A stretch of DNA of 64,000 bases from Clavelina lepadiformis. Its lineage: Eukaryota; Chordata; Ascidiacea; Aplousobranchia; Clavelinidae. This document shows positions 3,396 through 64,000 of the stretch, piece by piece (positions within the stretch are counted from its first letter, which is position 1; the number at the start of each line of letters is the position of its first letter). The notes below the pieces were generated by a model. The model saw nothing but the letters and a program-made list of their open reading frames with translations, ran no database searches and was not told the DNA's origin. The DNA is taken from the NCBI RefSeq assembly GCF_947623445.1, contig NC_135243.1, positions 22,452,479 to 22,516,478 of the forward strand, given 5' to 3'. The translations under genes and the position numbers were made by a program.

Positions 3396-5859
3396 AATCG
3401 ATGAAACAGACTAGATCCCTGCTACGTTGTTGTCTATTTTGTAAACAAGAATTGCTATCATTAGTGACGTCATTGATACAACCATATTATTACTTACGTC
3501 GAATGCTTTTTGCAGCAATCTGGATCTTCTGTTTATCGCGCCATATAGAAAAATGCGTATGACGTCATAATTTGCAAACTTTGCTCATAATATAAAATTG
3601 AACTCGTATGTGACATCAAGTTTTAACATATCTTCAGGTTTGACATGATCACAACCTAATTGTCGGCTTAATAAATTCTGACTTGTATCCTCTGTTCATG
3701 TAAATTTGCGATCTTACTTCAGAGTCGTGTCTTTGTGGTTATAGCTCATGACAAAATTGAACGTTGTTGAAATTGTTCGACATGGATGAGCAATGAGATG
3801 ATTTGTTAAAAATGTGTTTGTGAAACTTGTTCCAGTTAAGATATATACCTGTGCTTATTATTCAATACAACTCTATACTGCATGACATCCGCGTGTACAT
3901 TGTGGGGCAATACCATGCCAGGTTTAATACTTTGTTCAATCTAACAGGAAATGTCCTTTAAACAGCTTAAAATGTGGACAGGTGTTTAATTATCTAAGTG
4001 CCATATCTGCCACGACTATGGTCATCCAAGCCTCTCTGTTATTTAACTGTGACGCATTCAATTTCTTCAACGCTGAAAACGCAATAATTATTAATCCAAT
4101 TTATGTCTACTGTAGTAGTAAACTTCTTTGATCATACCTCTTCAGGAAAGCTGGTTTAGTGGTCGGCCTTGCTAGAAAAACAGGCTAAAAAAGTTAAGAA
4201 CTGCCGTTACGGACCAAAGCATGGAATTATGTCGGTGCCTGTCTCAACAACTCTGACTTATCGCTTCGTTATTATAAGCAGTTCATTTCTGCATTTGATA
4301 CAAAATATGTTTGCTTTATGCAGCCAAAGTGAGACCGCTTCATTAAAATCACTTGTACGCTGTGGAACGCTATTGAAACATTTTTGTACACTCGTTTTCT
4401 TGTTATGGAAAACGTGTCTTGTTTAAAGTAGCAAGTTTCCACCAAGCATTTGTGTTCCTTTTCTTCAGCAAAAACTTAATCAATTAATCTTAAGTTTAAT
4501 CAGTGAATATTTTGTAACGGTTTGTCGTCAGCGATATCACAGAAACTGGCTTAAATCAACTGCATATTAAGCAACAATAGCAAACCATGTTTTGCAGTGT
4601 CTTCTTTAGCGCATTGCTTCAACGCACACGTCATTTCCTTCTTTATCTAAATCCTCGATTAAATCGGAAGTAATTGAGAAAATCGATTGTTACACGATGA
4701 CTTCTTACAAAGCTGATTCTTCGAAACGCCTGGCGTGATTTCAGAGTTACTGAGGTTTTACAAAAATGTTTTATTATGGTTTAGAAAATAAGTGCACTTT
4801 AGCACTAAAGATTTTACGATTGCATTATACCAACATTTTTCCGCAATTTTAACCGTGTATATTAACGTAGACTTTATATACGCGCGCATAAATTCGATTT
4901 GAACCATAACTTGAATATTATACAGAACGTTAATATAAAGTTTAACTTTAAGCTTGACAAAGTTGTTAATCTCATTCAAACCGCTAGCAGATAATCAACC
5001 ATTTGTTGTTTTATATTAGATTCCAATACGATCTACAGCAACTCTTTTACGCCGTAGGAAATCGTTGCAGTCGTAGCTTGTCCTCATCTGTGCATTCAAT
5101 GTTTTTAGCACGTTTATTAGCTGTTCACATATACCACGAGACCTATAGCTAATTTTAAAGTTGCCATCTGTGTTCATGCACATTAACACGGCTCTATCAG
5201 TTACCGGATTGAGAATTCACAACCAGTGTCACCGGATTCTGTAATTTCGGACAATTTCCGTTTCTACATCAAACTCGGGATCATCAACAACGCCCTACAT
5301 TAGAGTTATGTCGACCAGAAACCGGGCTCCAGCCTGGGATGGCTTTTCTTGTACACCGGGTTTTCGTTTCCAATCCACTGACGTACAGCATTGAAACGAT
5401 GTTCAATCATCTGTTGCTTGAATACACCACCTAGTTGTCGGCTTATCTTCGCTTTTTATCTTTATCTTATCTTTTGTGGATTTAACTAATTATGGGCTTA
5501 TTGGCCGTGCTAGTTGTTACAAGCAATTATTACCTTAATTATTTTAGAGCACGTTTTAAGCACTTTCGGCTTTTTCATTTTATCCCGTTCATTAGCGCAT
5601 GCTATGGTTTGATGTTTTTCATCGCCACCGCGGTTTTGACGAAAAATAAAATGTTTGCTTGATCCATAATTAGCAATTACTTTTTTCGAGCTAAGTAAAT
5701 GATTACGCAACGAACAAAACAAAAATCGATGGCAATCAGAAAAAGAGAAATTTACGGTAACATGTCCATATATACTGTATTTTTTTGGCAACAAGTTTTC
5801 ATGTTGAAGTGGAGTCATATACATATTTTTTTAAATTCCGCAAAGTTACAGATTATGAC

Positions 5860-8799: not shown

Positions 8800-11700
8800 A
8801 TGTTTGTCGGTTTCATATTTCTGTTACTGGTTGGATTGCTGAGAGCTGGAGCAGATGCGCAGTGTACATCAGTATTAGAGTTGAATGTGGTTGGAGATTT
8901 TGTAAATATACCATTGCCAAGCGACTGCCCTGTGACTAATACCACTATTAATCGGGACATAAATGGAACGACGGTCGTTTATATTCCAAAATATACAGGA
9001 ACAACCGTTTCTCCTGGATTCCGATGCTTGGTGATTTGAGTATAAATTGAGTTTCAATGATTAATCATCTCTTCTAAAGACGTAAAGTACAGTTTTTATT
9101 GTGAGCGTAATCGATAGACAGTTGTTACTTTACGGTAGACCCATTATTACGTTTGTATACAGACTTATTTTATTTGGTCATGATTTATGTATTTAGTTTT
9201 ACGAAGGAAGCTCTACGTCCGGCACGTTTCTGGGGGCAATTCCAGAATCATTGGCTGGTTGGGTTGAATTACCGCAAAATCTAACTGAAGGATTCATCCA
9301 CTGTGTTGGCGAAGCAACATCGGCTTTTCTGTTTCAAGTTACAGGTGATTGGTGATAGTTCGTAGTTTTTATTGATGCTGGAAACATCAAGCATAAATAT
9401 TGACAGCACCATACTTTAATCTTTTTGTTTTTATAATCGAACAATCAATCGATCGATGGAAAGGGCTATGTTTAAGGCACACCCTCAAGCCGTATAGTTT
9501 TGTCAGGACTATTCGTCAACAGCGACGAGTGAGTTTAATCAATCGTTGGTTGAACTGACCGATCACCTTCTTATGCTCGGGCTTTTGTGTCATCGCCATA
9601 CCGCAGTATGTTATGTTTGCTTGAAGACTGTGATCAAGTTTTAACGTTGTTGGTTCGTTTAACGATAAGACGCAAACTCGGAAATCAGAAATACCCAACA
9701 ATAGTTGTATGAGAAAAACCGAACGACATTAATCCACAACTTTAAGGCTTAGTTCATCGTGATATTTTCTCATTTTGCTGCAATCTTGGTGTATATTTTC
9801 TAATGAATTGTTTTGAGTTTAAGTTTCAAATAGAATAATTTTCGGCCGTTTTATTACTGTTTCCAATTTTCTTTGGGATGTTTGAAAGACGGAATCGCTG
9901 ATTTATCTTATTTGCTAAAGACTTGAGATAAAGATATAAATATAGATAAGATAGATAGATAAGATATAAATACTCATCCAATAATAAATATTAAAACCTA
10001 GGTTTTTAATGCTTAGAAATGCTTTTTATCTTTTTCCAAGTGCCAACATCAAATGTAACATCGGTAGCTGTTGTGGACAAATCTCTGATAAAGGTAGAAT
10101 CACTAAACTTTCCTGCCACTTATCCTGCCAATTACATCCAGGAGACGGTGATAGAGAGCAGTCAATCAACCACATATGCGGTTACCTTCAATTCTACGTT
10201 TGGACTAAACAATATCGATGCTCTTTACGTGAGTACAACGAATGAAATTGTTGTAAAGTAAATTTGGTGACTTGGTAATTTACGTGGTTTTATCTAATCT
10301 GGTATTGGCGCAGATAACGTCGGATGAAGGGACAGGATTTGGGTATAGTAGTACAATCACTGCTCCTGATCCATTTGAAATCACCGGAAAAGAAATAGAA
10401 ATACAATTTGTTTCAGACATTTTCAACTTGCAAGCAGGATTTCAAATAACATTTGAAAAAAGTAGGCATTTGTGTTTGAGATTTTTCACTTAAATAAACT
10501 CACAACATCTTTTTTCAACTTTTATTTCCAGAACAGCTTACTTGCAGCGACCAGGGCCAAGTTAAAATCCGGTGATTAAAATTTAAAGCTTCATTAAAAT
10601 TACTTCGACTGATACTCATTAGCTTTGATCATACCACTTGAAACCCTTGTAAGATTGGTTTGACCGATATACTGTGATGTCGTAATCATGCTATTGGTGT
10701 TTTTAGCTTATTAAACCATACAGTGTACGATTTATGCGGAAATGAAGACGGTTACGTCATAATCAGCTCAACTCCTGTCGAAGATGTGAACTCAGTTGAC
10801 CCCGAGTGTAAAGCAAATGCGAGTGATCCAAATTTCAACCTTGGTTTGTACGATTGCTCGATATTGGAGGTATTTTCCATCTCATCAAAGATTTAAGACA
10901 AAACGAATTATTTTATCGGACGTTTGTTTCAAACAAATTACGATACTGTAAACTAAACATTTTTTGTGACGTACCACTTACTGTAGATCACAGACGACGT
11001 TCTCAAAGCGCACTTTCTTCTTCGATGTCTTCCTAAATTGAATAAGTCTGAACCGATCCAGCGCTACATGGATGGATGCTTCAACTTGACGTGCGAGTAC
11101 AACAGGACAGAACTGCTTGAAACTGGAGCGATTGTTCCAGAGATCAAGTGAGTATTAGACGTTTGTTGCAACATGTTGACGCTCGTTGCATTGATCAACT
11201 TTCAACAGGAAAGTGGAGCTGGATTCCGTTGAGCAAGAAGGAAGATTAGGAGTTAGCATTACATTCACCACAGATCAGTCTTATTCGTTTGAACTCGATG
11301 GGGGTGCTGAGGTCACGGTCCCGGAACCCGTTTACACAAAAGTAGAGCTGAGTACAACCGACGGCGCTTTTTACGTTCAGGTTTCAAATGATAAGCACTT
11401 GAAATAATTGCAATTGCTCTCCTTACGATTGCTGCCATACGTCAGAGATAATGTCATTTTATGATAATGTTTTTGATTCAGTTAAAGGAATGCTGGGCGA
11501 CACCTAGTGAAAACCCTGATGATGTAGGAACAAGATACAACATCATTGAAAACAGGTGATCTAGCTACAATGAAAGAATGATCCTTGTTTCATATTTATT
11601 GACGTTTATTTTTTATTCTAAAAGTTGTCCAGCTAATAACCCATTTGAATCCGAGGACGCAATCGAAATTGACCGGAACTATATGGAAAAAAATGCTACT

Positions 11701-12441
11701 TTCAATTTTAAGTCCTTTGTGTGGTCAGAGAATGCAGAGGGAGCAATTTATGTTTATTGTCGCGTCACCATATGTCACGAGGATGTTGACTCTGGATGTC
11801 CGGCTGCTGTAAGCTCGGATGTATCTTGTATAAAAGGGTCACTTGTATTAAAGGATTTCGGAACTTTAATTTCATTTGAAAATTCTTGAACTTAATTAAG
11901 TTCCTTGATGAATTTTTTACTATTGTGTCATAATTTTATCAGCCTGGTTGTACCAAAAAAAGGAAACGTGAGGTGTCATCCCCTGATTCGCTCCTGGTTT
12001 CATCCGGACCTATCTTCATCAAAAATAGCAGGAAGAAGAGTTGTGAGCAGGTAACAACTCACGCGTCGTATTTGTTTTATGTAACATGTTTGAGGAAGAT
12101 TTTTAATTTTCTTTGTTAACTTTTTTACAGTCAAACGGTGGCTGCAGTGACGTGTGTGAGATGCGTAATGATGACGTCATATGCTTGTGTTATGATGGTA
12201 AATTTCTTGGAGAAGATGAAAAAACGTGTCAAGGTAAACTTAATGCAATTACGCGTTTCGTTATACCATTATGACGACATTAATTACGTCAGGTGTTGAG
12301 AAGTATGAAATTATTGACGGGGGAAGCGATTCCTGGACCCTGGTTGGTGTCATCGCAGCTTTCTTCATCGTAGTTGGTTGTTTGTTTGCGTGGAGCAAGA
12401 AAGATGGGAAAAGCGGAGATGGCTCCCGACACCTTATTTGA
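8800..12441 (+). CDS. CUB-ZP-EGF transmembrane protein, copy 2 (complete)
   Basis: Thirteen coding exons: 8800-9030, 9197-9344, 10041-10228, 10314-10461, 10532-10571, 10707-10869, 10987-11147, 11209-11380, 11482-11555, 11625-11808, 11943-12050, 12131-12233, 12293-12441. They sum to 1869 nt, or 622 aa. I chose the ATG at 8800 because it starts directly with a signal peptide (MFVGFIFLLLVGLLRAGADA); an in-frame ATG at 8740 would add a polar leader. Approximate residues: signal 1-20, N-terminal domain of unknown fold 21-125, CUB 140-240, ZP 242-510 (ECWATPS, SFVWSENAEGAIYVYC), furin-type KKRKR near 508-512, EGF-like 540-573, transmembrane about 585-607, cytoplasmic tail of about 15 residues. Several NXT/NXS glycosylation sites are visible. 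Exon lengths from exon 3 onward equal those of copy 1, so both copies look functional. The domain order suggests a membrane-tethered ZP precursor. Confidence 0.92.
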
Positions 12442-47759: not shown

Positions 47760-48430
47760 GGGTAGTGGTGTAATTTTCTCTCTTCAAGTTCCAGCAGTAA
47801 TGTGCCATCATGTGGCAGTCCCATCGGCCTTGGTAGCGCTCTTTCATATAACTCTAATGTCTTAGTGAAAGCGCTCACCTTATTCTTCACTGAAGTCCCC
47901 AAGGTTTTCAGAAAAGTAATCTAAATGATTTTTCAGAAAATGTAGTTTTATGCTCATATTGCATTTCTTCTCTTGCATGCTGGATAACATTTCTTTTAAG
48001 AGGTCTGGATAGTTCTCTGTCTTTCTGTTGCCAAAGGAGTTACTAACAACTAAAGAAAAAGCATTCCAAGCCCTTGCTTCAACTGTGTTCATTGATGCTG
48101 CAAAGTTTGCCTACAGTTGTCATTGTTGTGTAACCTTTGTAGTGAAGTGGGTAAACCTTACAGGTTAAGGTACCATATACCACTTTTCATTACAGGTTCA
48201 TTATTTTTATGTCTACACATAATCTCCAACCATAATCACTGTACTTCAGTGTTTCCAGCACATTCTTAATGTTTTTATACGTTTCTTTGAGTGTCACAGA
48301 ATGTCCTACTGGAATCGATGCATATTTATTTCCATTGTGAAGTAACACGCACTTCAGGCTTCGTTTTGAGCTGTCAATTTTCTTTTACATTATACGAACA
48401 ATGTTATGTTTATTGTTGACAATATTTACG
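47760..48430 (-). pseudogene. Remnant of a transposon-type gene
   Basis: On the minus strand from 48390 downward: VLLHNGNKYASIPVGHSVTLKE and TYKNIKNVLETLKYSDYGWRL; after decay 47880-48092 reads EARAWNAFSLVVSNSFGNRKTENY and CNMSIKLHFLKNHLDYFSENLGDFSEE, and then GERFH and YQGRWD-like sequence near 47830. These blocks occur in this order in a protein family that is multi-copy in fish and insects and looks transposon-derived (recollection, no search). The coding frame is broken in several places. Confidence 0.6.
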
Positions 48431-49165
48431 TTTTACTAAAGAGCAGGGTGCTGTCACAAAAAGCATTTAAGTCTACCTTTTAAGTCTCCAGGGCAGATGC
48501 ATACAGATAAACACGGTAACTCAGTAATGAGCTACCAAACGTGATGTATAAACCAAGCGCGATGTATAAAGATGGTAACTAAGTAATGAGAAACGAAAGA
48601 AATAAATGAATGCGTCCGCATATATTTTCGAAATTTGAAAAGAGGTCCGTGATTGAAGAAAGATTGATAACCACTAGATTAAAGTTTACTGAAAACTCTG
48701 TCATTCTGTGCTACAACAAAACTTCCAGCCGAGGTTTCACCATAGGTGATTTCAATAACAATATTTGATTTGTTGCTGTTATACGCTCACCGTACCGTCG
48801 CTAATGAAAGTAAAAATTTGATCAATTTATGAAATTGGGGAAAATGCGCAGCGAAAAAACCTGACGTGATAGACGATAGAGCAATTCTGAGCTCAGAATT
48901 GGATTCTTGGCCAAAACTTAGCCTAAATCAATCATCAAAGTTCATGCAACAAAACTTTTTTGTTTTTGTAGACCAGTGATAATCAATTGCAAACCTGCAT
49001 AATCACGCTTTCAATCTTGCAACGGTTGAAACGCCGAATAAAATCGATTTTATTGAAACGATTACAGTAGGCCTATATAAGCAATCAAACTACGAAAAAA
49101 CCTTTCTAATATATCCAATCCTATCAGGCCACTCAAATACAACAAAGATACGACACAAATTTTCA
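48431..49165. other. 3' flank of SDR copy 1
   Basis: Non-coding. The part from about 48990 resembles 57640-57720 (CGCCGAATAAAATCGATTT versus CGACGAATAAAATCGGTTT), marking the 3' limit of the SDR tandem duplication. Confidence 0.45.
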
Positions 49166-49981
49166 CTATGACATTGGAGGTGGGCCAGCAAGAACGGCCC
49201 CTCTGTCCAAACACAAATTGCTACCGGTGATGGTTCGGGCAGAATCAGATGCCAGAAACAAGATGGCGTCTACCACGTCTTGCTTCTCTACAAGCACTCC
49301 TCCTAGAATACTACTTTTCTCCTCCATGCCAAAAAGTACATCTTCATCTAAACCAGGTCCAAGTAATCCCGGTCGTTTCAATATATTTGTCCTACAAGCT
49401 CCAGGACTGAAAGGAAACAAAATATAGTAACTGATGTAAAGCAAGATCAGTGACAAGTGAGATGATTGTAGTTTTAAGAGGTTTGCAATTGCTACAGCCA
49501 CCGTGGTAAGAAAGTAGTGATGAAAGAAATGTCCATGTCCACTGGACGACAGGTTATTTAATGTTGAAATGTACGCCATGAAACTTACCACACAGCATTC
49601 ACTCTAATTCCTTTCTCTGCCAAACCTGTCAAGACAAAAACGATAAAATTGTTACAACAGTATTTGGTAAACAGTTTTAAAAATTTTTTAATCAAAAAGT
49701 AGCCTTAAAATCTCTCTGTTGTTATTAATACATTGCACTTCCAAAGGCCTTAATTTTCTGTTTAATATAAAACAGTCAATCTTTGAGCAAGGCTCATAAC
49801 ATTTCACCTAATGCCGCTGTTTTGGTGAAGTAAGTCAATGCGGCCTTTGTCATTCCGTAAAAGACTGCGATCGGACTAAGTATTTCAGCAGCCGTGCTTG
49901 CCATGTTAATCACATTTCCTGGAATATTTACAAGTACTTCTTAGACAAGGCAACAGAATGGATAATGAGACGATACTGCAC

Positions 49982-50208
49982 ACAAACAAACAAACAAACA
50001 AACAAACAAACAAACAAACAAACAAACAAACAAACAAACAAACAAACAAACAAACAAACAAACAAACAAACAAACAAACAAACAAACAAACAAACAAACA
50101 AACAAACAAACAAACAAACAAACAAACAAACAAACAAACAAACAAACAAACAAACAAACAAACAAACAAACAAACAAACAAACAAACAAACAAACAAACA
50201 AACAAACA
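49982..50208. repeat. (CAAA)n microsatellite in SDR copy 1 intron
   Basis: About 56 uninterrupted CAAA units. Both strands are open in all frames across it (NKQT and CLFV runs), which are not genes. The matching intron of SDR copy 2 (58534-58707) lacks the repeat. Confidence 0.97.
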
Positions 50209-51322
50209 TTGCATTGCACAATGCACAACACAGGTTCTTGCAACCTTTTGTCTTTTCTAAATGAGGCACAGCAAGCTGGGTGAAGTGGAAATGAGCCTTC
50301 ACGTTCAGGTGGAAAATGGAATCAAATGATTCTACAGGAGCCTAAAAAGTTTGGCAAAGTTAAGCTCATCAACAACATATGACTGGACCCAGTCTTGTGG
50401 TTTGTAGCTTTTTAAAAAAGTAATTCATTAACTTACATCTTCTACTGAACCCAGTTGAATTATTCCTGCGTTATTGACAAGCACATCCAACCTGACGAAC
50501 GTTTCAATCGTTTCGTTCATTGCTCGAACTATGTCACCTTCGATTCGTAAATCGGCCACTACAGCCAACACCTAACATAATTTTCCAATTTCAAACCTAC
50601 AATTGTGCACATGAAGAATCGCTCTAAATTTAGATGCGTCCTACCTTAGTCGCGCCGGCCTTCTTGCATTGTTCGGTAACTTTTCCTAAATTTTCTTCAT
50701 CTCTGTCAACCAAACTCAACGAAGCTCCTTTCTTGGCAAATGCGTATGCAATCGCTTCTCCAAACCCACCCAGATAGCACGTAGTTGTCGGTCCGACAAC
50801 TACAACGAGCTATTCTCGCTATAGCGATTGTAGCTCCTCTGCCGCTAATGGGTAGCAAGCTAGACACGGTGTTTTTACGCTGTCCAAAAGATCTTTGTCG
50901 GGCCGACGGAGGTCCATTAGTGATGTTAGATGATGCCATAAAACCGTTTAGAACAAAATAATGATTAAACATACATAACTTAGTTTTATTTAATATTTTT
51001 AAAATATAAATGTTATTATTTAATGAGGTTCGTAACAGTCGGAAAGGTTTTTTCACTAAATGTTGGTAACAAACTAACAATTATAATAATTATAGTAATT
51101 CCTATAGTAATAACACCCCTGGCTTTTTTATTCAGATATTTTGAATATAATACGTATTATACTTCTTTGTTTATTCTGAGTTTTTGTTTAACAATTAAAT
51201 AAACATTTATTTCTAAGTTATCAAATCGATATCATTTTAATGTTTTTTTCTGCTTTGAGGCTATGGTCGTCAGCAAGTTTGATTGTCGCCGTCTAGTTTG
51301 AACAATGAGATAGGATATAGTC

Positions 51323-52160
51323 ATGGTTGCCAACTGGTATATTTATATACCAAATTCCAGAAACCTGGTATATTTCAAACCTGTATGGTATACGATTTTT
51401 TCGTTTGGTATATTTTGGAAAACTGGTATATTCTTGGTATATTTTTGAAATTAAAAAAAACTGTTTCTGAATTTCTACCACAGATTTACTTTACAATCTG
51501 GCAACCCTGCAGTAACAGACTAACAGTAAAGTGTAGGACTGAATTTACTGAAACTGAACTGCTGAGTGCTGACTGTCACTCACTGTTCTCAGCCGTCTTG
51601 AGAAAACGGTAGCTGGGCGCTAAATTTAGTTGGTTTATAAGGCGTTACACGATAAATTCAAAATTAAATAATAATGGCATCAAGGAAATGGAAACCACGT
51701 TATGATGGTCAACGAAAATTTCGTTCAGAATGGTGTCATGAATTTCCTTGAAAAACTTTGAAACTGTTGATATTTGTAAACCCTACAAAGAGTTAGCACA
51801 TTATGCTCTTGCTTGTTTGGCTACTCCAGTCAGTAACGCTATTGTTGAGAGAATGTTCAGCCATGTCACTTGTGTAAAAACTAAATTCCGAAATAGGCTT
51901 AAACTTCCAATGCTATAGAAGCAATTCTGAGGGTAAGGCATTGTTTAATTATGAAAGGAGAATGCTGTAAGAAATTTGATGTTACCCAACAAATGTTCGA
52001 AAACTTTAATTAAAGTATGTATGATTTACAAAATGAGGATGGAAATAAGTTTGAATTACTTGACTAAACTTTTTCATTCATATCAATGCATCGTCAAACA
52101 TGAGGATGTAACATTTAAAAGATATGAAGGCAGGCAAAAATTGTTTTCTGGTGGATTTTA
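51323..52160 (+). mobile_element. Internally deleted hAT element nested in the DUF4806 transposon
   Basis: Begins near CATGGTTGCCAACTGG followed by six or more TGGTATATTT-type subterminal repeats (51333-51446); a second inverted-like word CTGGCAACCCTG lies at 51498. From 51674 MASRKWKPRYDGQRKFRSEW resembles a hAT N-terminus. Soon after, 51765-51930 reads PYKELAHYALACLATPVSNA and IVERMFSHVTCVKTKFRNRLK, the hAT C-terminal dimerisation domain. The catalytic middle is missing. The right end and target duplication could not be placed. Confidence 0.7.
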
Positions 52161-52896
52161 AACCATAGTTCGGTTTATTATATAGTATTGCTGCTGATAA
52201 GTGGTTAGAGATTTGATACAAATCCAAATGTTATATGTACCAATTGTAGTTGGATTAGATCTTATGATAAAACATACACATGCACGAGACTCGTTGATTG
52301 GTTAATGTGCGTCTGTCTGCACGCTAGGCTACGTAAAGAGTTTGGTATAGGCTAATGGCCTTAGTCACGTAGCTTAGTACGTGTGTTTTTCGACTAGGCC
52401 TACTGCTGCGTCATTTGCTTAAGGCAGGTTGTTTTCCGTTTCAGGATTATAAATCAATATTCAACAAAAGTATAGCCTATATTTCAAACCATTTGGCATA
52501 TAAAAGACATCCACCAAATTTCGAATGAGGCAAAATCTCGAAATAAAATGTGCCCTATAAGAAAGAAATACGTACTAAGTCATGCAAGCAAAGTCAATAT
52601 CTGAAGAGGTCCAATAATAAACCTAGGCTAGGTGTCCAAGACTGCCAAGTTTTGTAACTTTATCATGAGCGAAACATGTATTTTAGACGGAGGATAAAAA
52701 AGCCCCCTCATGTGTATTTTGAGTCTCTCTGGAACTTGTGTAAAATAGAATTAAGGTGTGTAATTTTGCACTTGTAATGTATAATAGTTTCTAGTTTGAC
52801 TAATAAAAGTGTCATGTTTTTAGGTTAACCATGGCTTCAGCACAAAACATGCATACCAGTAATTATATTTTTAATTTAATTTTTAATTATTCCCAG

Positions 52897-54811
52897 ATAA
52901 TTATAAGAGTGCTAGAAAAAAGTGTGAAAAAGCAGTAAATGCAACTCATATCTGCTCAGAAGATTTAGACACTACCGACGTTGAAAGTAAAAGGAAGTAA
53001 GTCAGATAAAAAACCAATTATGTGGTTGGACACTTAGCAATTTAAGCAATGAAGATAGGTTTTCTGTGAGTAGCATTTGACAACTAAAAATATGTGACTA
53101 AATAAATTACATAATTTATTTGTAATGAAGTATTCAAACTCGCACATTTTTCAAATATTTTGTTGAAACAAAAACATATACATATTTTTTATCAGAATTC
53201 GACCTCCATCTCGACTTGAAGAATCAAATTCTGACAATGATGCCAGGTAAAGTAAACAGAATTGACCTTGGATGATGAAATAAACAAAGTGCAAATGCTT
53301 GATAAATTACCTGATTAATTATTATTATACATGTTATGACTGTCTAAAGTAGTGATTTGCACATTAGTGAACATATTTACTGCAGTAACCACTGGGAATC
53401 AGACCAATCCAAACCCAAAAGGAAAAAATTGTTTTCACAACATTCAACACCACCACCTGTTGTTCCAGAAATGCCTAACACCCAGGAAAGAAGGTATACA
53501 TTATTCTCGATATTGCTGTTATTATAAATAATATGTAATTTTTTAAATAAGTTATGGGCTACATATAAAAGTTACCAATCTTTACATTAATGTTCAAGGT
53601 AAAAAAATGAAAGTATTTTATCTTCAAGTAGAAGTGATAAGCTATGCTACCAATTTCTTTGTTTTGGCAGTGCAAATACTTCTTTTTCAACACCCATTTT
53701 AGTTGCAAGGTAAACAAATTTGACATGCAATGCCACAAGTTTTTCTTTGTAAACAGTTACGTAACAGCTGTAATCAGTGTGGTATGCTATGTGGTACGGT
53801 ATGCTCGTTTTTCGTACTTCCGGATTCTGTAAAATAATCCAAGTTTCTTCGGTGGAACACTTCAACTTGCCGATAGATTCATTTGAGGATTTTGATAGGG
53901 TGGAATCACTGCTAGCAGAGAAATCACAAGCGCATGTTTTTGTAAGTGCAACATGTAGGTTAATATGCAAGTTACTGATAATTAAATAATAATATGAATA
54001 TTGAGTATTTTCATCTCTTTTATCTAATTGCTATGGGGGACTACGTTGACATTTTTTTCAACTTTGATAATGCTTCCATGTAAAAGCATGACATGTAACC
54101 AGTAACATAATGCCGCCAAACAATTGATTCTTATCAGGATTTTTTTTTAGATTTCCTATCTAGAAACAATAGGTGGCATAACAGCAAAAGATGTTATCAG
54201 CATGATGTTGAGCAAATTGTTGACCTGTGAACTGGCAACCAATTGTAATTGGATGGGAAAGGGTCATAAGACAGGAATGCATTCATCACAACTCGCAAAA
54301 GCTGTTATAGGTGAATAAGTCAAAATTGAGTGTTGATGGTTTTGCTAAGTCATGTTTTGATTTTTTAGGTTGCTTACCGCTTCTTAATTGTTTTAAGATG
54401 TATTGTGAGTGTTATTTACTATTAGGCCTATCTGTCGATGATGTTTACTCCAGTATTTTGTTTTCATGTCATTATACTTTAGATGCTGCCAAGAAATTGG
54501 GTATTAAGGAAGCAGAGAGTATCTGCGAGATCAAGAAATGGTTAAAAAATGCTAGTGATAGGGAAGGGGGACGGCTAAAAAGAATGAAGAACAAAATGGG
54601 TAAGCTGTGTGGCATGCGTGTGTGATGTTCATATCATGTATTGCAGAACGTTTTACTTTGCATTTTTAATTTTGTAGATAGTAAAGAAACATTATGCAAT
54701 ATATTTCATTACAAAAATGTTTTAGATAAAGAGCGGAAAGATGAAGCCACGCGCAGACAATTGTATTTCATGAATTTCGACTCATCTTCTACAAGTGATG
54801 ATAGCGGATGA
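52897..54811 (+). CDS. DUF4806 protein carried by the transposon (5' end uncertain)
   Basis: Plus-strand exons read: 52897-52996 (NYKSARKKCEKA ... ESKRK), 53196-53246 (IRPPSRLEESNSDNDA), 53386-53493 (KPKRKKLFSQHSTPPPVVPE), 53671-53709, a block ending at 53941 (EHFNLPIDSFEDFDRVESLL), 54151-54310 (ISYLETIGGITAKDVISMML, then NWMGKGHKTGMHSSQLAKAV), 54483-54599 and 54726-54811 (stop TGA). The middle matches DUF4806 (LP...FEDFD..ES.L; IGG.....V..ML..L...ELA..NW.GK). The first exon(s), normally with a Trp-rich start, are not found and may have been lost to the nested hAT; the junction before the 53941 block is also unresolved. AATAAA at 54826 and 54868 are candidate poly(A) signals. Function unknown; proteins of this type are often transposon-linked. 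Confidence 0.7.
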
Positions 54812-55236
54812 TGATAGTGATTATAATAAAATATTGTGTTTGCTGGTAGAACTTTCAAATTTGAAAAAATAAACTTTTTGCTGAACTGCATAAAAACCCT
54901 GTGTGTTAGTGATTGTTGGTAGGCCCAAAGTCGGCTCGTAGGAGATCGTAGCTAACTTGCCGACCGAGGTCCGACAAAGATTTTGTTGCTCCCTACCCGA
55001 CCTAGGCCCGCTGGACAAAACGAAGTTGGCCCTTCAGCGATTATCGTTTGTGGGCCGCCAAAAGCAAGCTAGCGGCTCGACGTCGGCCCTCGAGCGACGT
55101 GCTATCTGGGCAGTGGCAGCACCTGTTAAAGAAATCAATCAACGCAAAAAATGAACTGTAAGCCCATTTTACACCGTAAGCCTAATCCCGCATGTTCACC
55201 TGTAATTAAGACGACTTTCGATGCAAACTCAGACAT

Positions 55237-57807
55237 TATACTGTATATTCCAATAAAATTACACGCTTTTCTTATTTTGCACAAAACGTTTTCTATTATA
55301 CCTTAACCTTCGCAGAGGAGTTTTCTTTTGAGATCACCGAGTTATGCGCCTATAGTTAACTGGCAATGGTAACTCGCGCAGTAGTTGATCTGGGACGTAC
55401 ATCAATCAATTTTAATTATTAACAAACAACAAACAATGTGCTAGTTTAATGTTTTTTTGTCTTCGCCAACTAGTCCTCCGATGTTATTGTTTACACGTGG
55501 ACTTTGTTATTCAAACAACTCGAAATAGGTTAATACCGGATTAAATTAATTATATTGCTCTTCTTATTGGTTGTTTTCAATTCATAAAATGCTTTTCTGA
55601 AAACGTTTAGTTAAGTGTTCGATGTGCGAGAAGTACAGCGACTATAATACTCTGCCATATAAATATTAATTGGTTAAGTAATTCATTTCAACTTCTCTAA
55701 ATATAAATTCAACACCATGAAGAACCAAAGCACTGACATGATTCTGTTAGACTAAAATAACTGAAGAAACGATAAATGAGTCCCCTTCTACATATGGAAT
55801 GAAACAAACGTGCACACTGTAAGAGTGAAAAGGATACGCCTACAGGATGCAGGAATATACAGGATGTAAAAATTTCCTCCTTTTAACGCAAAATGAGGTT
55901 TAATTTAGGCCGGTACGTGACAGGCTTTTTCTGCCGCCTATAAAGTGCCGGGGACGTTGTCCCGAAATAACGACCCGCCCGCAAAATCGACTCTGCTCAA
56001 TTTAATAGCCACAAACCAGCAGTTACAAAAAAACAGAGACATTGTTAAAAGCAGTGGAAAGGAGCACTACTTTGCACAATACGGACATATTCAATAACAA
56101 ACTTAAGCCGAAGGCATACCGAGAAAAATTGACAACATCTGTTTTATTCTGCGCCCGAATATGGAATGTTTCTACGACAACCTCGCAAAAAAATTGCTAC
56201 CCAAAGAAACAAACGTAATCAGCACTAAATTATAATAAACGTCGTTACTGCCCGAGGAAGAAGTAACGTGACAAAGCATTCTCAACACATTGAAACTTTG
56301 TAATGATATTTTTTTATAATTTTATTATATGTTTATGGCTAAATTTTATTTCATGAATATTAATTTTTCAATGTTGTTCAGTATAATTGAAATCTGTGTC
56401 ATATCAATATTTGATTTTGTGTTTATCACGATTATAAGTGGTAGTTAGAACCAGAGTCGAATAATATCTCGACTTGAGAAATTTTTTTTCAAAGACTCGA
56501 CTTAAACTCGATACCCTTTCCAAGAAAGTGCAAAACCACCTTCACCCGAGTCATCGTTTCAAATGACTGGACTTGACTCGAGTCACGTATTTTTGATTTA
56601 CGTTTCAGGATAAAAGCAAAACAAATCTCTATTCTTTGTTCGGAATACAGTACATTAAAGTATAACTTAAAATGATTTTATTCGGCTACGAACGCGTACG
56701 TTGCAGCCAAACGAAGCAAACTTTGTAATCATCCTAAACGTTTGTGGTTGATAGAAATGGTGTTTTTGCTTTATGTTTGGGTTGTTTTCGAACATTAATT
56801 GACTTAACTCGAGTCCGTTGTAATAAAAGACTCGGCCTGACTTGAGTTTTGAAAGGTAAATCACTTGACTGGCAACTGAAGTTTAATGACTTCCCCGTTG
56901 GAAGGTTTTGTGGGGCCCAAGCACAAGTTATACTTGACGTATACTAGGGCCTTCCTAAGGTTTCCTGAGATGTGCCATACATATATCGTAGTCTTTGGTA
57001 ACGAAAGGTAACTTTGGGCCTAGCCAGGGAAACCACCGATAAGCCATGTATGGCTCCCCCAGGTAAGTCAAAGATAAGTCCTACCAAAGCCTTTCATGGC
57101 CCTTATTTAGCTTTATCCCCTGACACTAAAAACAGGCAAGTATTACTCTTGAAAATGTATTATACCACCAGGTGTATGAATACAAGGTGAAAAGAACTCG
57201 TTGTACAAAAACGGACAGAAAATCATAGGAAATTAAAAAGTTCTTCGTCCACGAATAAAAAACGTTAAATTTAACAATAAAATTATATTATGACAATTCC
57301 CTCGGACCAAGGAAAATCTTTGACAAAATTCGCCAATGACTTCTCGTCGCTACGAGCCTCGTACGGGACGTCACAGAGAATAATTCTTCTAGCGGACTTA
57401 TGCGCAGGCTGGTTCCAAACAAGCACTGACTGTTTATGAAATATTAACTGGACATTTTCTCTCTCTGCATATAATCACCAATGTAGTGTCGTAGTGAAAT
57501 AATTAATCCTAATTTGAGTTTGTGCAAGTGTGGAAACAACAGCTACAGTCTTTACATTACTACTTATTGGCTCAAAAATCTTTATGTTAAATCTTTCATT
57601 CTAATGGCATTTGTTGTTTTGATAAATGACTGTATCCAGCTTCACCCGCTGACAATTAACAATGTAAAAGTCGAAACGACGAATAAAATCGGTTTATTGA
57701 AAACGCAGCAGTAGTTATTCGTAAATTAAACAAAACAAATTTGGTCAACTTCTCCAGGCAATATGATCTAAGCAGTTTATTCAATCACATCAATGGAAAA
57801 GTGCAGT
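55237..57807. other. 5' flank of SDR copy 1 and spacer between SDR copies
   Basis: 55237-55880 is similar to 59585-60310 (shared TTAATTATTAACAAACAACA, GGTTAATACCGGATTAAAT and GTAACTGAAGAAAC words), so the tandem duplication included the promoter side. 56455-56870 is a dispersed CGAGTC-rich repeat. Around 56940-57120 there are short self-complementary words (AGCCATGTATGGCT). No gene is recognised. Confidence 0.5.
56455..56870. repeat. Dispersed CTCGAGTCAAGTCA repeat, copy C
   Basis: Contains ATCTCGACTTGAG, GACTCGACTTAAACTCGA, GGACTTGACTCGAGTCA, TTAACTCGAGTCC and CCTGACTTGAG. It is the largest of three members of this family in the window and is non-coding. Confidence 0.5.
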
Positions 57808-59584
57808 TTATTCACCCTTATATAGTGGGCCAGCAAGAACGGCTCCTCTGTCCAAACACAAATTGCTACCGGTGATGGTTCGGGCAGAATCAGATGCCAG
57901 AAACAAGATGGAGTCCACCACGTCTTGCTTCTCTATGAGCACTCTTCCCAGTATATGGGTTTGTTCCTCCATGCCAAAAAGCATATCTTCGCTTAAGCCG
58001 GGAGCCATTGCTCCAGGCCGTTTCAGGATATTTGTCCTACAAGCCGCGGGACTGAAGAAAAAAAATATATATTTAAAACACGGAAAAACTAAACCTAAAA
58101 CAACTAAAATATAGTTGTTGTGTTCGGAACTCTACCACTGAACAACTTATGAGCAGCGTTCAGGATTGAATATTGTTTAGTATTGAAATTGATTCAGTGT
58201 TACTTACGCCACCGCGTTCACTCTTATTCCCTTTTCTGCCAAACCTACAAAACGACAAATAGTGTTGAATTAACTACAGGCCTTGATAAAAGTTGTATGC
58301 ACCCTTGTGGCAAAAATGACAAATAATACGCACGTTGGTAACAAATTACATCATTATAACATGATTCTCCAACTAAGTTAACCTATGCCGTCAAACTTTG
58401 AGCAAAAGTTGTAAAATCCAACCTAAGGCCGCCGTTTTGGTGAAGTAATTCATTGCGGCCTTTGTCATTCCGTAAAAGATTCCATGTGGTGTGAGCAGTT
58501 CGCCAGATACGCTTGTTATGTTAACCACGTTTCCTGTAATGTATAGAAGTACTTCTTACAAGACACCAGACTTTGGGTAATAAGAAGATACTGCATATTT
58601 ATCTCGCTACTATCTCACTTTGAAAGTTTGAATGATAAAAACATCATCGCATTACACAAAGTGTATAGTTGGTGAACATAAGTTTTTACAAATTAGGTTC
58701 TTGCAACCTTTTGTCTTTTCTAAATGAGGCACAGCAAGCTGGGTGAAGTGGAAATGAGCCTTCACGTTCAGATGGAATATGGAATCAAATGATTCTACCG
58801 GAGTCTATAAAGTGTGGAAAAGTTAAGTTTATCAAGAACGTATGACTGGACTCAGTCTTGTGGATTGCAAATGACGGAAAGACAGAATGTTTAAAGTGAA
58901 CTTACATTTACTACATTTACACTTGCATTTACAACTTACGTCTTCTACTGAACCCATTTGCACCATTCCTGCGTTGTTGACAAGCACATCCAACCTGTCG
59001 AACGTTTCAATCGTTTCGTTCATTGCTCGAACTATGTCACCTTCGGCACGTAAATCGGCGACTACAGCCAACACCTATAGTAATTTCCCAACATCAAAAA
59101 TTTGTCTAAATGAAGATTTAAAGAAAATCAGTGCGTCCTACCTTAGTTGCACCGGCCTTCTTGCATTGTTCGGTAACTTTTCCTAAGTTTTCTTCATCTT
59201 TGTCAATCAAACTCAACGAAGCTCCTTTCTTGGCAAATGCGTATGCAGTCGCTTCTCCAAACCCAGAAGCAGCACCTGTTAAGGAAATCAATCAATGCAA
59301 AGATTGAATTGACAGGCTAAAATACAGGGTAGACCAGAAGCAGGTTTACAGTTATCACGTACACACTTTAAATTTCAAGTATGTTTTTTATTATAGTCAC
59401 GTATACTCTGAATAATTTTTGTGTTTGTGGTACTTAGCAAGCGATGTGAATTGTTTTGCAGTGTGCTCAGCGAGTAGCTTCAAGCTTATAAAAGATAGTT
59501 TAATAACTGTAAACGTACTTTGAGGCCGACCTGTACATTCCATTTACCTGTTATCAAGACGATTTTCGAAGCAAATTCAGACAT
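57808..59584 (-). CDS. Short-chain dehydrogenase/reductase, copy 2 (intact)
   Basis: Seven coding exons on the minus strand: 59548-59584, 59142-59275, 58940-59074, 58708-58804, 58423-58533, 58208-58244, 57808-58051; 795 nt, 264 aa. Start MSEFASKIVLITG places the cofactor motif TGAASGFG at residues 12-19. NNAG is at 90-93, catalytic Ser142 in NITS, Tyr155 and Lys159 in YGMTK. The length is normal for a classical SDR. The usual PG motif after the catalytic lysine region reads APAACRTN here but CPGACRTN in copy 1, so cofactor loop or substrate may differ. No organelle signal seen; probably cytosolic. The substrate cannot be told from sequence. Exon lengths match copy 1 except the last. Confidence 0.93.
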
Positions 59585-62500
59585 TATATAAAAGTTAAAT
59601 CACTCGCGCTTCTTAGATTGCACAAAACGTTTTCTGATGCCGCGTAAACTTCGAGTACAAAATTAAGCCTTTCGCTGTGATCTCAATGCTCAGTGCCTGG
59701 TTAACTGACGATGGCAACTCAAGAAGTGGTTTATCTGGCACGTATACCTATCAGCTTTAATTATTAACAAACAACAAATAACGTCTGTGCTAATTTAATG
59801 TTTGTTTTGCCTCTTTTTTAGACCTCTCATATCACTGGTTTCATGTGAACCTTGCTAAACAAACAATTTCAAATAGGTTAATACCGGATTAAATCGGTTT
59901 TAATTATTGTTTAAGTTGTCGCTTTCATTCCAAAGACATGTTTTTTTAATTATACATTTGCTTGAGTTTTAGGCTAATAACTATAATTTGCCCTGACTCC
60001 CAAACACTTTTCCATGTAAATGTTTATTTCATCGCTATCTCAAGTCATTCTAATTTCACTGAAGATTTTATTTCAACACGAGGCAGAGTTTAGTACCACA
60101 ACGTCAAACACAATGAGATTTTTTGGTTATAGACTATAAAGTAACTGAAGAAACAATGCATCTGCACGCCTCAACATATGGAATTTAAAACGTGCACGCT
60201 GTAAGATTAAAGAGGAAGGTGTTATTACAGGATATACCACAGTAAAACGGAGAGACTGTGCACGTGACGCAGTAATGCACAGGATGCAAAACTTTTCTCT
60301 CTTTTCGACCGATATAATGTTTATAGAGACTGAGAAATATTGATCATGACTTTCGTGTACTATAGTTATTATCAAACACATGTATATTGCAAATATAAAA
60401 AAATAAAACATATACACTGTACTTCAAACGATCTGGAATAATATACTGTTTACATTTCAGGTCTTTTAATATTATGTCTATTCGGAGAGAAATCATGTAG
60501 CTTTATTGGCTTGGAATGAAATCAACAGGCTTTATACGAGAGATTTGTTGTTGTCTAATCTCATTGCATATTATAACAGATTGAATTATCCTGATTAAAC
60601 TGATTTAACTGATTAAATTATTATTATATTATAAAGTTCTCTGTACCTTTAAAACGTAATGCAATATACCGTGTATCATGTCTCGTCTCTATTGGTTTAT
60701 TAGTGCCAACATGTAACGATTTAAATTTTGAAACCTTTTTAAAGCTTCTGAGATCAAAATTACGCTGTTTCTGCTCGCGACAGTAATGTCTTAAACCTGA
60801 TGCAAAAGGATAAATATAAACGAAACAAATATAAACGAAACAAAAGTTTGTCTCCATCGTTTTTACTCAAACAAATAAATATTTCTGTATAAATAGTCGT
60901 TGGATTGTCGTAAATACACGTTGCGACAAAAAATATAAACGCTTTCGACAGCAGACAACGTTCGGCAAATGAAAATGGATAGTTTCCAATAAGCTGAATT
61001 CTAAAAACATTTTTCATTTTTTTACGTATATGTGTGAATAAAAGCTGCTTGGCTGTCACTGCTATATACGATTTGAATATATAAAATCCTGTTATTTTAA
61101 AAACAGAATTGATTTCATTACTGTAGAAACAAATACATTTTTATGGTCAAATTAATTGTATTGGAGTTTATAAAGGCTCATGGGCCAAAAAGTATCACTA
61201 TCTCTGTGTATTTCGTTTATGATTAGGAGTTATGTATCATTGTCTCACTACTGCGTTTACATTTATTGCTGGGCTATATTTGCAGAGTTATAAACACAAG
61301 AAAAATTTTTGTGTATAAAAACATCGATTGCAACGTTTGATTTTTGAAAATAATTGCGTATATCCCTCAATGGTTTGACGATCTACTATATAAGTATCCA
61401 GTTAACTGTCTATTATAGTTTTTACTACCATTTACACAAAAAATGCATTTCTGCATCGGTTAAATGTGTCGACTGCGCAGTCAGCAAAAATATCGGCCTT
61501 TAGACTTCGGCTTCATCGAAATGAAGCGCAAGTAAGTGCTTAAGTTGATCAGACAATACTTTAATCTGTAAATGTTCATCGAACATACCCTGGTCGACAA
61601 GTAAATCTTTAACTACACCCAGTGTACTCATTTAACTTTTGAACTTAGTGCCTTTGTTCTAAAATTGAACACAAGTGTTTGCTAATGCATTGCACAATTC
61701 TCTACGTAGCCTTAGGGCTGTGAAATTACAAAACAAATTATGAATTGGAAAAAAGGACAAACGAAATTAAACATTAGTTTCTGGAAGCAAGTGGAATGCT
61801 GTCATATGCGTTATTTGCTTCCATTATAATTTTGCGAAAAACAGATTCAAAACCTATTTGGTACGCGATTACAGCCAAGTTTATTTTTCAACATTACGGT
61901 ATCAAATGCTTTTTAAGCCTGATTCTTCAAACTACTGTTTACCTATATGGCGGGCATAAACAAAGAATGTTGTTAATTTTACGTAAACCACAAAATCAAC
62001 TTTAATAGATAAAAAAAGTTCTTCTAAATTTACGGCAAACACAGAACAAATAACAAAACAAGTGGCATCAGCAGCATTTCGTTAAGGTTGGCGCCATTCA
62101 ATAGGCTGACTGAGGCTGATACGCCGACTGAGGCTTTAAAGCTTGACCTTGCATGGGGCTATTTTTAACTACTTGTCTTGTATTTAACTGGATTCGTCCA
62201 AACACGTTTTATTTACTGTAATTATTGCATTTCAACCGTTTAATAAAACCTTTAGCTTCTTTTTTGTGACACACAAAACAATTTTGTGTTCTATTGTCGA
62301 TTTACTCAGTGACACTTTTTTTCGAAACTTTCGGTCTGAATAAATCGAACTTGATTAAGTATGCTTCGTGCTTCGACCTGAAACTCGTCTCTATGAACAT
62401 TAACCGATTTCTTTACTTTCTTTGTTGAGATTATGTTTTTACTGTCATGTAAGATTTACTTTTATAGAGAAATGCAAGAAACTGTACTGAAATTAGAAGC

Positions 62501-63153
62501 TGTAGATCAAACTGATGTCATTTTGATCTTTAGATTAGGTTTATCGAAGTAACGTTTGCGTTTGTTACATATACTATAGCGCAAAAAAAAATTTTTGCTG
62601 TTTAATTACAGAAGCTGTTAATTGTGGAAAGAAATTACAGATACATACGTAACCGAAAATTCTTGCCTTCTGGTGCCAGGCTGTTTTCTCACATTCACGG
62701 TGAATGGCGACATCATCAATAAAACCCAAGAAAGCAATTTATTTCATTAAACAGCCCCCACAATCAAAACCAAACCGACCTCCTTAAATCACTTAACAAC
62801 GGATTTTACAGAATGCAAAAGGTGAGGTGCCAAACTATTGATAGGATAAGAGCGCACTAAACGTGAGAGCAACGATAATTAATCGCAGGTAATCAGCTAA
62901 AACCAAAACACCGTGAAGTAATCATCGCACATCAAGCAGAAAATTAACGCACCATAAAAACGGTAAAATATAAGATACTATAAATAACACGTGACATATT
63001 TTCGTCACACATATACAGTAAAATTGTTTTGTGCAAGATGGAACATGATGGCAGTTATACAGTTACATCTTATCCATTTTTCGAACAAGTATTACAATCT
63101 CTATAACATGAAATTAACAACAACTGCCAACATTAAAATACAAGCATACAAAT
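59585..63153. other. Intergenic region between the SDR and XDH genes
   Basis: The first 0.7 kb matches the 5' flank of SDR copy 1. The rest (60310-63153) is AT-rich with no recognisable gene, repeat end or RNA. Open frames at 60127-61059 and 61796-62005 lack similarity. Confidence 0.4.
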
Positions 63154-64000
63154 TTATGCTTGGATAGACCATGGGGTCAGTTTCTCTTCATTTGTTGAAT
63201 GTGACGCGTGCTGAAAGCCAAAAATATTGGTTAATCGAGAAATGTCAAGAAGGTGATATTACTATAGTTCTTACAAAATCATTAAATGTGTTCCTATGTT
63301 GAGTTATGATTAAGTTTGCTTTGAACAAACCTGTTTGGTGAAGCGGTCAGCGCAAGACATTCTAATACGTTCTGCTGACGCGGGAGAATCCAGTCGGAAC
63401 TCTCTTGGCAATCCCGAGTCTTCTCTGGCGTAACCAATCGCGTCTTTTATCGCAAAGAGAACCGATGACGCTAAAAAAAGTGGCGGTTCACCGACGGCCT
63501 AAGAATATATGGAAGTATGCAGTTTAAGGTCTTATTAAGTTAATGTACTTCAACTACATTACTGCTAACTGCAAACAGTTGTACCTTCGATGAAAATATT
63601 GCTTGCTTGTTGGATACATCTCTCAGCAAATGTACGTTGAACTCTTTAGGGCAATCCCCGAAACCGGGAATCTTGTAAGTTCCTGGTCCTCTTGTGAGCA
63701 TTTCTCCTTTTGGCGAGTAAAGCGGTTCTTCCAAAGTCATCATTCCATACCCTTGAGTAAAAGCTCCTTCGATCTAAGAACAAATAGTTCTTTTTCTTTC
63801 TAGTCGTCTGAATGTTTCACACACGATATATTTTGACTTAATTTATTGATATCAAAAACATCTTTTAGGTCAGTTATAAATGATAACCAGTACCAGTATT
63901 AAGCTATCACGACAAAATACCTCACCTGTCCAATGTCGATGCTTGGATTAAGACTTCTTCCCAAATCCATGACGATGTCAGTTCTGAGCACGATGTGATC
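63154..64000 (-). CDS. Xanthine dehydrogenase/aldehyde oxidase, C-terminal exons (5' part beyond window)
   Basis: Four minus-strand exons: 63926-64000 ([20 protein letters not shown]), 63585-63773 ([35 protein letters not shown]), 63331-63498 ([20 protein letters not shown]) and 63154-63210 (ending LTPWSIQA, stop). All junctions are in phase; 162 residues are visible. These are the last blocks of the molybdopterin domain of the xanthine oxidoreductase family. The Glu in AVGEPPLF is the conserved active-site glutamate. The enzyme hydroxylates hypoxanthine and xanthine in purine breakdown. A C-terminal PWS-x-x-like ending is usual for XDH, but aldehyde oxidase cannot be excluded without the substrate-pocket residues upstream. 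Confidence 0.92.

Follow-up and report, generated by a model that had tools for sequence, protein, structure and literature searches.

We analysed a window of 64,000 nucleotides (nt) of the tunicate Clavelina lepadiformis, bases 22,452,479-22,516,478 of chromosome 4 (C4) in an assembly of 95 contigs and 209 Mb; positions below are those of the window unless a contig is named. The minus strand of 49166-55236 holds a seven-exon short-chain dehydrogenase/reductase (SDR) gene that is interrupted by a transposon in exon 2. The element, 4342 bp at 50769-55110, sits after codon 16, within TGAAT/GFG of the TGxxxGxG cofactor motif, and a CA on either side of it forms a 2 bp target-site duplication (TSD). 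The exons, the element and an intact tandem paralogue are placed as follows.

55200..55236, minus strand: SDR exon 1, 37 nt, with the start codon and a GT donor.
55111..55122, minus strand: 5' piece of SDR exon 2, 12 nt, including one CA of the TSD (55111-55112).
50645..50768, minus strand: 3' piece of SDR exon 2, 124 nt with the duplicated CA at 50767-50768 and 122 nt without it.
50437..50571, minus strand: SDR exon 3, 135 nt.
50245..50341, minus strand: SDR exon 4, 97 nt.
49808..49918, minus strand: SDR exon 5, 111 nt, catalytic Ser/Tyr/Lys region.
49589..49625, minus strand: SDR exon 6, 37 nt.
49166..49406, minus strand: SDR exon 7, 241 nt, with the stop codon.
50769..55110, plus strand: non-autonomous TRC/CACTA-like DNA transposon, 4342 bp, with terminal inverted repeat (TIR) CCCAGATAGCACGT and 2 bp TSD CA.
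57808..59584, minus strand: intact tandem SDR paralogue, 264 amino acids (aa), seven exons, exon 2 of 134 nt; the span is derived from exon offsets.

Removal of 50769-55110 together with one CA gave exons of 37, 134, 135, 97, 111, 37 and 241 nt, and the reconstructed empty target site reads CCAAACCCAGTGGCAG. The resulting 792 nt encode 263 aa and a stop codon, with no internal stop and with GT..AG borders at all six introns. The reconstructed protein matched the Pfam families adh_short_C2 (E 1e-52) and adh_short (E 2.2e-51), and TGxxxGxG at 12, NNAG at 90, N115, S142, Y155 and K159 were all retained. No further coding or splice-site damage was found in the interrupted gene. An earlier note on this DNA had described an SDR gene knocked out by a transposon, with an exactly recoverable empty site, an exon 2 equal to that of the intact paralogue, an uninterrupted 263 aa reading with its catalytic residues and no other accumulated damage. 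The knock-out is borne out by the element boundaries, the TSD and the predicted premature stop; the excision is base-exact, exon 2 measures 134 nt in both copies, and the reading frame and all splice sites are intact outside the insertion. As a separate observation, intron 4 of the interrupted gene carries a perfect (ACAA)57 microsatellite at 49982-50208, which makes up 227 of its 326 nt; a tandem-repeat search of 48000-64000 listed no microsatellite in the intact paralogue.

Read without splicing of the element, exon 1 and exon 2 run into the transposon, and a stop is predicted after 41 aa. Skipping of exon 2 would lead to a product of 24 aa. The interrupted allele would, from these predictions, be null at the protein level.

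The interrupted copy and its tandem paralogue are equal at 222 of 263 residues (position by position, no gaps), and contig C6 carries 12 further matches to the SDR gene DNA. Over 250 codons, the ratio of nonsynonymous to synonymous substitution rates (dN/dS) between the two tandem copies was 0.31 (NG86) or 0.39 (YN00). When the changes were polarised with six C6 paralogues, the interrupted copy showed 6 nonsynonymous to 4 synonymous changes and the tandem paralogue 7:3 (Fisher p 1.0). A run with three C6 paralogues, made without L004, L007 and L008 before the later run used all six C6 loci, gave 11:6 and 9:8, respectively (p 0.73); the first 13 codons were omitted in both tests, since the model of L003 probably has a faulty exon 1. 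Since the branch ratios of the interrupted copy resemble those of the tandem paralogue, amino-acid changes are not in excess on it, and it bears no sign of long decay. The paralogues may buffer the loss of the interrupted gene. A search of the PDB for relatives of the intact paralogue at E<=1e-40, a threshold that was too strict, returned none.

Two side observations concern the SDR paralogues. In the automatic gene model of L005 (C6:828349-831674), one of the six C6 SDR paralogues examined, Asn replaces the expected Lys of YxxxK. Compared with the interrupted copy, the tandem paralogue and L003-L008 of C6 scored 0.83-0.96 over exons 2-4 and 0.57-0.86 over exons 5-7, as if exons 2-4 had been homogenised or were more constrained.

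The transposon ends in 14 bp perfect TIRs, CCCAGATAGCACGT and ACGTGCTATCTGGG, and contains two further features.

51322..52101, plus strand: nested hAT-like insertion, right limit approximate.
54151..54315, plus strand: DUF4806-like open segment (E 1.9e-4, below the curated cut-off).

A genome-wide search for the element, with 40 of 259 candidates scored, gave 91 matching pieces, and copy numbers are therefore lower bounds. Twenty fetched loci were compared together with the window copy, 21 copies in all, of which 18 were counted as two-ended by their CCC..GGG termini. A 2 bp flanking duplication, varied in sequence, was present in 17 of these 18, the window copy included; the exception, L057 (C5:13049179-13051769), is a 1591 bp internal-deletion copy with both TIRs, flanked by CA and GC. 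Because of these duplications and of near-identical relatives elsewhere in the genome, the insertion of the element is not a chance appearance.

Among the seven long copies examined, of 6.6-8.3 kb, L048, L049 and L050 have an open reading frame (ORF) of 645 aa, which is shorter or was not found in the other four; the window copy lacks both this frame and the transposase region. The 645 aa frame contains LDYMHLVCLG, CDYC and DGLPLFKSSTESFWPI; these correspond, in this order, to box A, to CxxC and to the motif I core. The eumetazoan box A ([LVI]Dx[LM]Hx3LG), as LDYMHLVCLG, occurs in the open frames of six of the seven long copies (L047-L050, L052 and L053, not L051) and arose by chance in 1 of 5000 shuffles of the ORF. 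As for CxxC, a weak motif when taken alone, L052 and L048-L050 carry CDYC within an open frame (at residue 260 of 645 in L048-L050), L047 and L053, whose frames are shorter, show only a different CxxC (CSKC), and none was scored in L051. The DG..WPI part of motif I was present in three of the seven (L048-L050) and in none of the 5000 shuffles. DUF4218 matched the 645 aa ORF weakly (E 0.0011, below the cut-off); this domain goes with Transposase_21 in plant CACTA elements, according to PMC8978399. Animal TRC elements of the CACTA superfamily are described in PMC1636069 as having CCC termini, 2 bp duplications, box A, CxxC and motif I, the last (a hydrophobic run followed by DGx3[FY]x7-9WP[ILV]) 'in most of the elements', and the same text reports high-similarity TRC-ORF matches in Ciona intestinalis. 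In PMC4298943, a Hydra element is assigned to the TRC/CACTA group by its CCC termini and 2 bp duplications. By its ends, its TSD and the motifs of its longer relatives, the window element, which is non-autonomous, resembles animal transposons of the TRC/CACTA (EnSpm) type, the family name being provisional.

Elements of the hAT superfamily are expected to carry CAGGGTTGCCA-like TIRs. In the sister copy L039 the nested hAT is complete and is bordered on both sides by the 8 bp TSD GATATAGT, which is single in L041; its ends, read by eye, are CATGGTTGCCAACTGG and CTGGCAACCCTG, so that both the 8 bp TSD and the CAGGGTTGCCA-like TIR of the superfamily are found. In the window copy alone it is shortened on the right by a 201 bp deletion, and it retains a fragment of the hAT dimerisation domain at 51742-51915 (Pfam E 6.2e-4, below the curated cut-off). 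The hAT junction, searched with up to two mismatches, occurs at two places in the genome only, the window copy and L039.

The age of the insertion was examined by comparison with the sister copies. The window copy showed no mismatch over 2826 bp with L040 (C4:21.33 Mb), and 4 mismatches over 4342 bp plus the 201 bp indel with L039 (C7:8,622,392-8,626,934). At element positions 2603, 3305 and 4320, L039 alone is deviant, the window copy agreeing with L040 and all other readable copies (14, 15 and 9, respectively); at 3730, the window copy and L040 share a base that L039 and 13 further copies do not have. The comparison thus revealed no substitution private to the window copy (95% upper bound about 0.07% over 4342 positions). 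The recency that the earlier note had drawn from the lack of damage alone is therefore supported independently. Elsewhere in the family, L048 and L050 (C7 and C2) are identical over 6594 bp, and L049 differs at 5 positions. Because of the near-zero divergence of the window copy and the identity of L048 and L050, the transposon family has, by this comparison of copies, moved very recently.

The sister copy L040 has lost the left 1516 bp of the element; element position 1517 there directly abuts a kinase segment, which we take to be CHK1-like. The kinase segment at L040/L059 (C4:21329072-21337400) differs from L060/L062 (C3:14.98-14.99 Mb) by 1 mismatch over 1637 bp and by 0 over 3147 bp. The C3 kinase exon runs further upstream to an AG, a possible splice acceptor, and the C4 exon is cut. 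The fusion is, judged from this near-identity, a recent chimeric duplication, and it could be the outcome of repair of a break in the element from a distant template. Capture of the gene between two TIRs was considered and rejected, as no left TIR (up to 3 substitutions) was found in 5.0 kb upstream.

From these data, we are confident that a non-autonomous TRC/CACTA-like transposon recently entered one of the two tandem SDR genes, in exon 2. Transposase from the longer copies still in the genome would move the non-autonomous element in trans; the element would have landed by cut-and-paste in exon 2. The insertion duplicated the 2 bp CA and split the cofactor-binding motif.

Several points weigh against this reading. 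The bound on recency holds if substitution rates are ordinary and the copies have not converted one another; for element positions 554-1332 it depends on L039 alone. The junction of the 201 bp deletion occurs once only in the genome and the immediate donor copy was not found, the exact donor being unseen because that junction is present in the window copy only. All the evidence comes from the genome sequence of a one-haplotype assembly. The full motif I, with its preceding hydrophobic positions, was matched in none of the seven long copies, and at E<=1 the 645 aa ORF gave no match to PF02992 (Transposase_21). Nor did PF02992 match, at E<=10, a 200 aa stretch of this ORF, whose sole match was Desulfoferrodox (E 0.031, below the cut-off), and a whole-genome PF02992 search returned two sub-threshold places, neither among the fetched copies. 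Because the Transposase_21 profile and the full motif I are unmatched, we write TRC/CACTA-like rather than a full family name. Lastly, an AG at 50799, the sole in-frame acceptor joining exon 1 to the rest of the SDR within the final 600 nt of the element, keeps the frame to the SDR stop codon, but splicing there would exchange the first half of the glycine motif for other residues.

One alternative is that the insertion is older and fixed, its pristine look being due to gene conversion that keeps the family uniform. The kilobase-scale identity of some family members could also come from conversion, but the family is not uniform (L058, for instance, is about 81-93% identical over its pieces), the window copy retains its unique 201 bp deletion and a nested hAT known in one other copy, and the host SDR exons, too, are without decay. 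We regard this explanation as very unlikely.

The acceptor at 50799 bears on another alternative, in which the element is tolerated and the SDR protein still made, most of the element being spliced out or used as an exon. Plant CACTA elements can be spliced from transcripts, and joining through 50799 would restore a full-length-like reading. The product would, however, lose GAAT of TGAATGFG, and the search, which was confined to acceptors, gave 50799 as the one frame-keeping site in the stretch covered. With element termini of CCC..GGG and no GT-AG supplied by the flanks at its borders, splicing would not be expected to excise the element exactly. We hold tolerance of the element to be likewise very unlikely. 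The least probable alternative, by a small margin, is that this SDR was a pseudogene before the insertion, the element having hit dead DNA: the Asn-for-Lys change of L005 suggests that loss of function may be tolerated in this gene group, but the 263 aa frame, all splice sites and the catalytic residues are intact, dN/dS against the paralogue is low enough (0.31-0.39) to speak against it, and the branch change ratio is like the paralogue's.

Under the preferred explanation, a recent insertion, the element is young, and the insertion is therefore likely to be still segregating in the species; the suggestion of the earlier note that it may be polymorphic or present on one haplotype only is plausible. 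A search for the empty site across the assembly, allowing up to 3 mismatches, hit only the paralogue, at 2 mismatches, and no alternate-haplotype contig was found within the same assembly. A search for a mitochondrial COX1 gave no match. According to PMC10884593, the kaClaLepa1.1 assembly represents one haplotype, second-haplotype contigs (GCA_947623165.1) and HiFi reads are deposited, and so is RNA-seq from another Clavelina lepadiformis individual. The public alternate haplotype and reads make the polymorphism of the insertion checkable by a short computation. A literature search listed no heterozygosity value for Clavelina, and the passages of PMC12373286 consulted name the species only in an orthology list. 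A wider picture, in which the TRC/CACTA-like family is transposing now, the SDR disruption is segregating and breaks at elements are repaired with host DNA, as at L040 with its CHK1-like segment, is tentative, and we would put it at slightly below an even chance. If it holds, the family would both knock out and duplicate genes in natural tunicate populations.

Elsewhere in the window, a Pfam search of eight other open frames gave one match above the cut-off, a zona pellucida ZP-C domain (E 8.4e-8) in the open frame at 11578-11889.

The locus would provide a clean, datable chordate case of a duplicated gene nullified by a cut-and-paste transposon, and it marks a TRC/CACTA-like family with very recent activity in a tunicate. 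The reconstructed protein is like a classical SDR in its TGxxxGxG, NNAG and N-S-YxxxK layout, and the interrupted gene differs from one by the transposon in exon 2. With the TRCs described in PMC1636069 (SmTRC1 of Schistosoma mansoni and those of Tribolium and Aedes), the Clavelina family shares the CCC start of the TIR and the 2 bp TSD, and its long copies share the LDxMHxxxLG box, CxxC and, in L048-L050, the DG..F..WP box; the CCC start and the 2 bp TSD are also shared with Spongebob of Hydra (PMC4298943). Unlike known TRCs, the window copy has no transposase region, and its nested hAT and DUF4806-like segment set it apart further; the long-copy ORF is not reached by the Transposase_21 profile and does not match the full motif I. 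As an event, this is of a well-known type, an ordinary insertional mutation in which a young transposon insertion would have nullified one copy of a duplicated gene. It has the features of known DNA-transposon null alleles in duplicated genes, that is an exonic insertion with a TSD, a gene otherwise intact and an intact paralogue adjoining, and the Clavelina SDR case is not different in kind from them.

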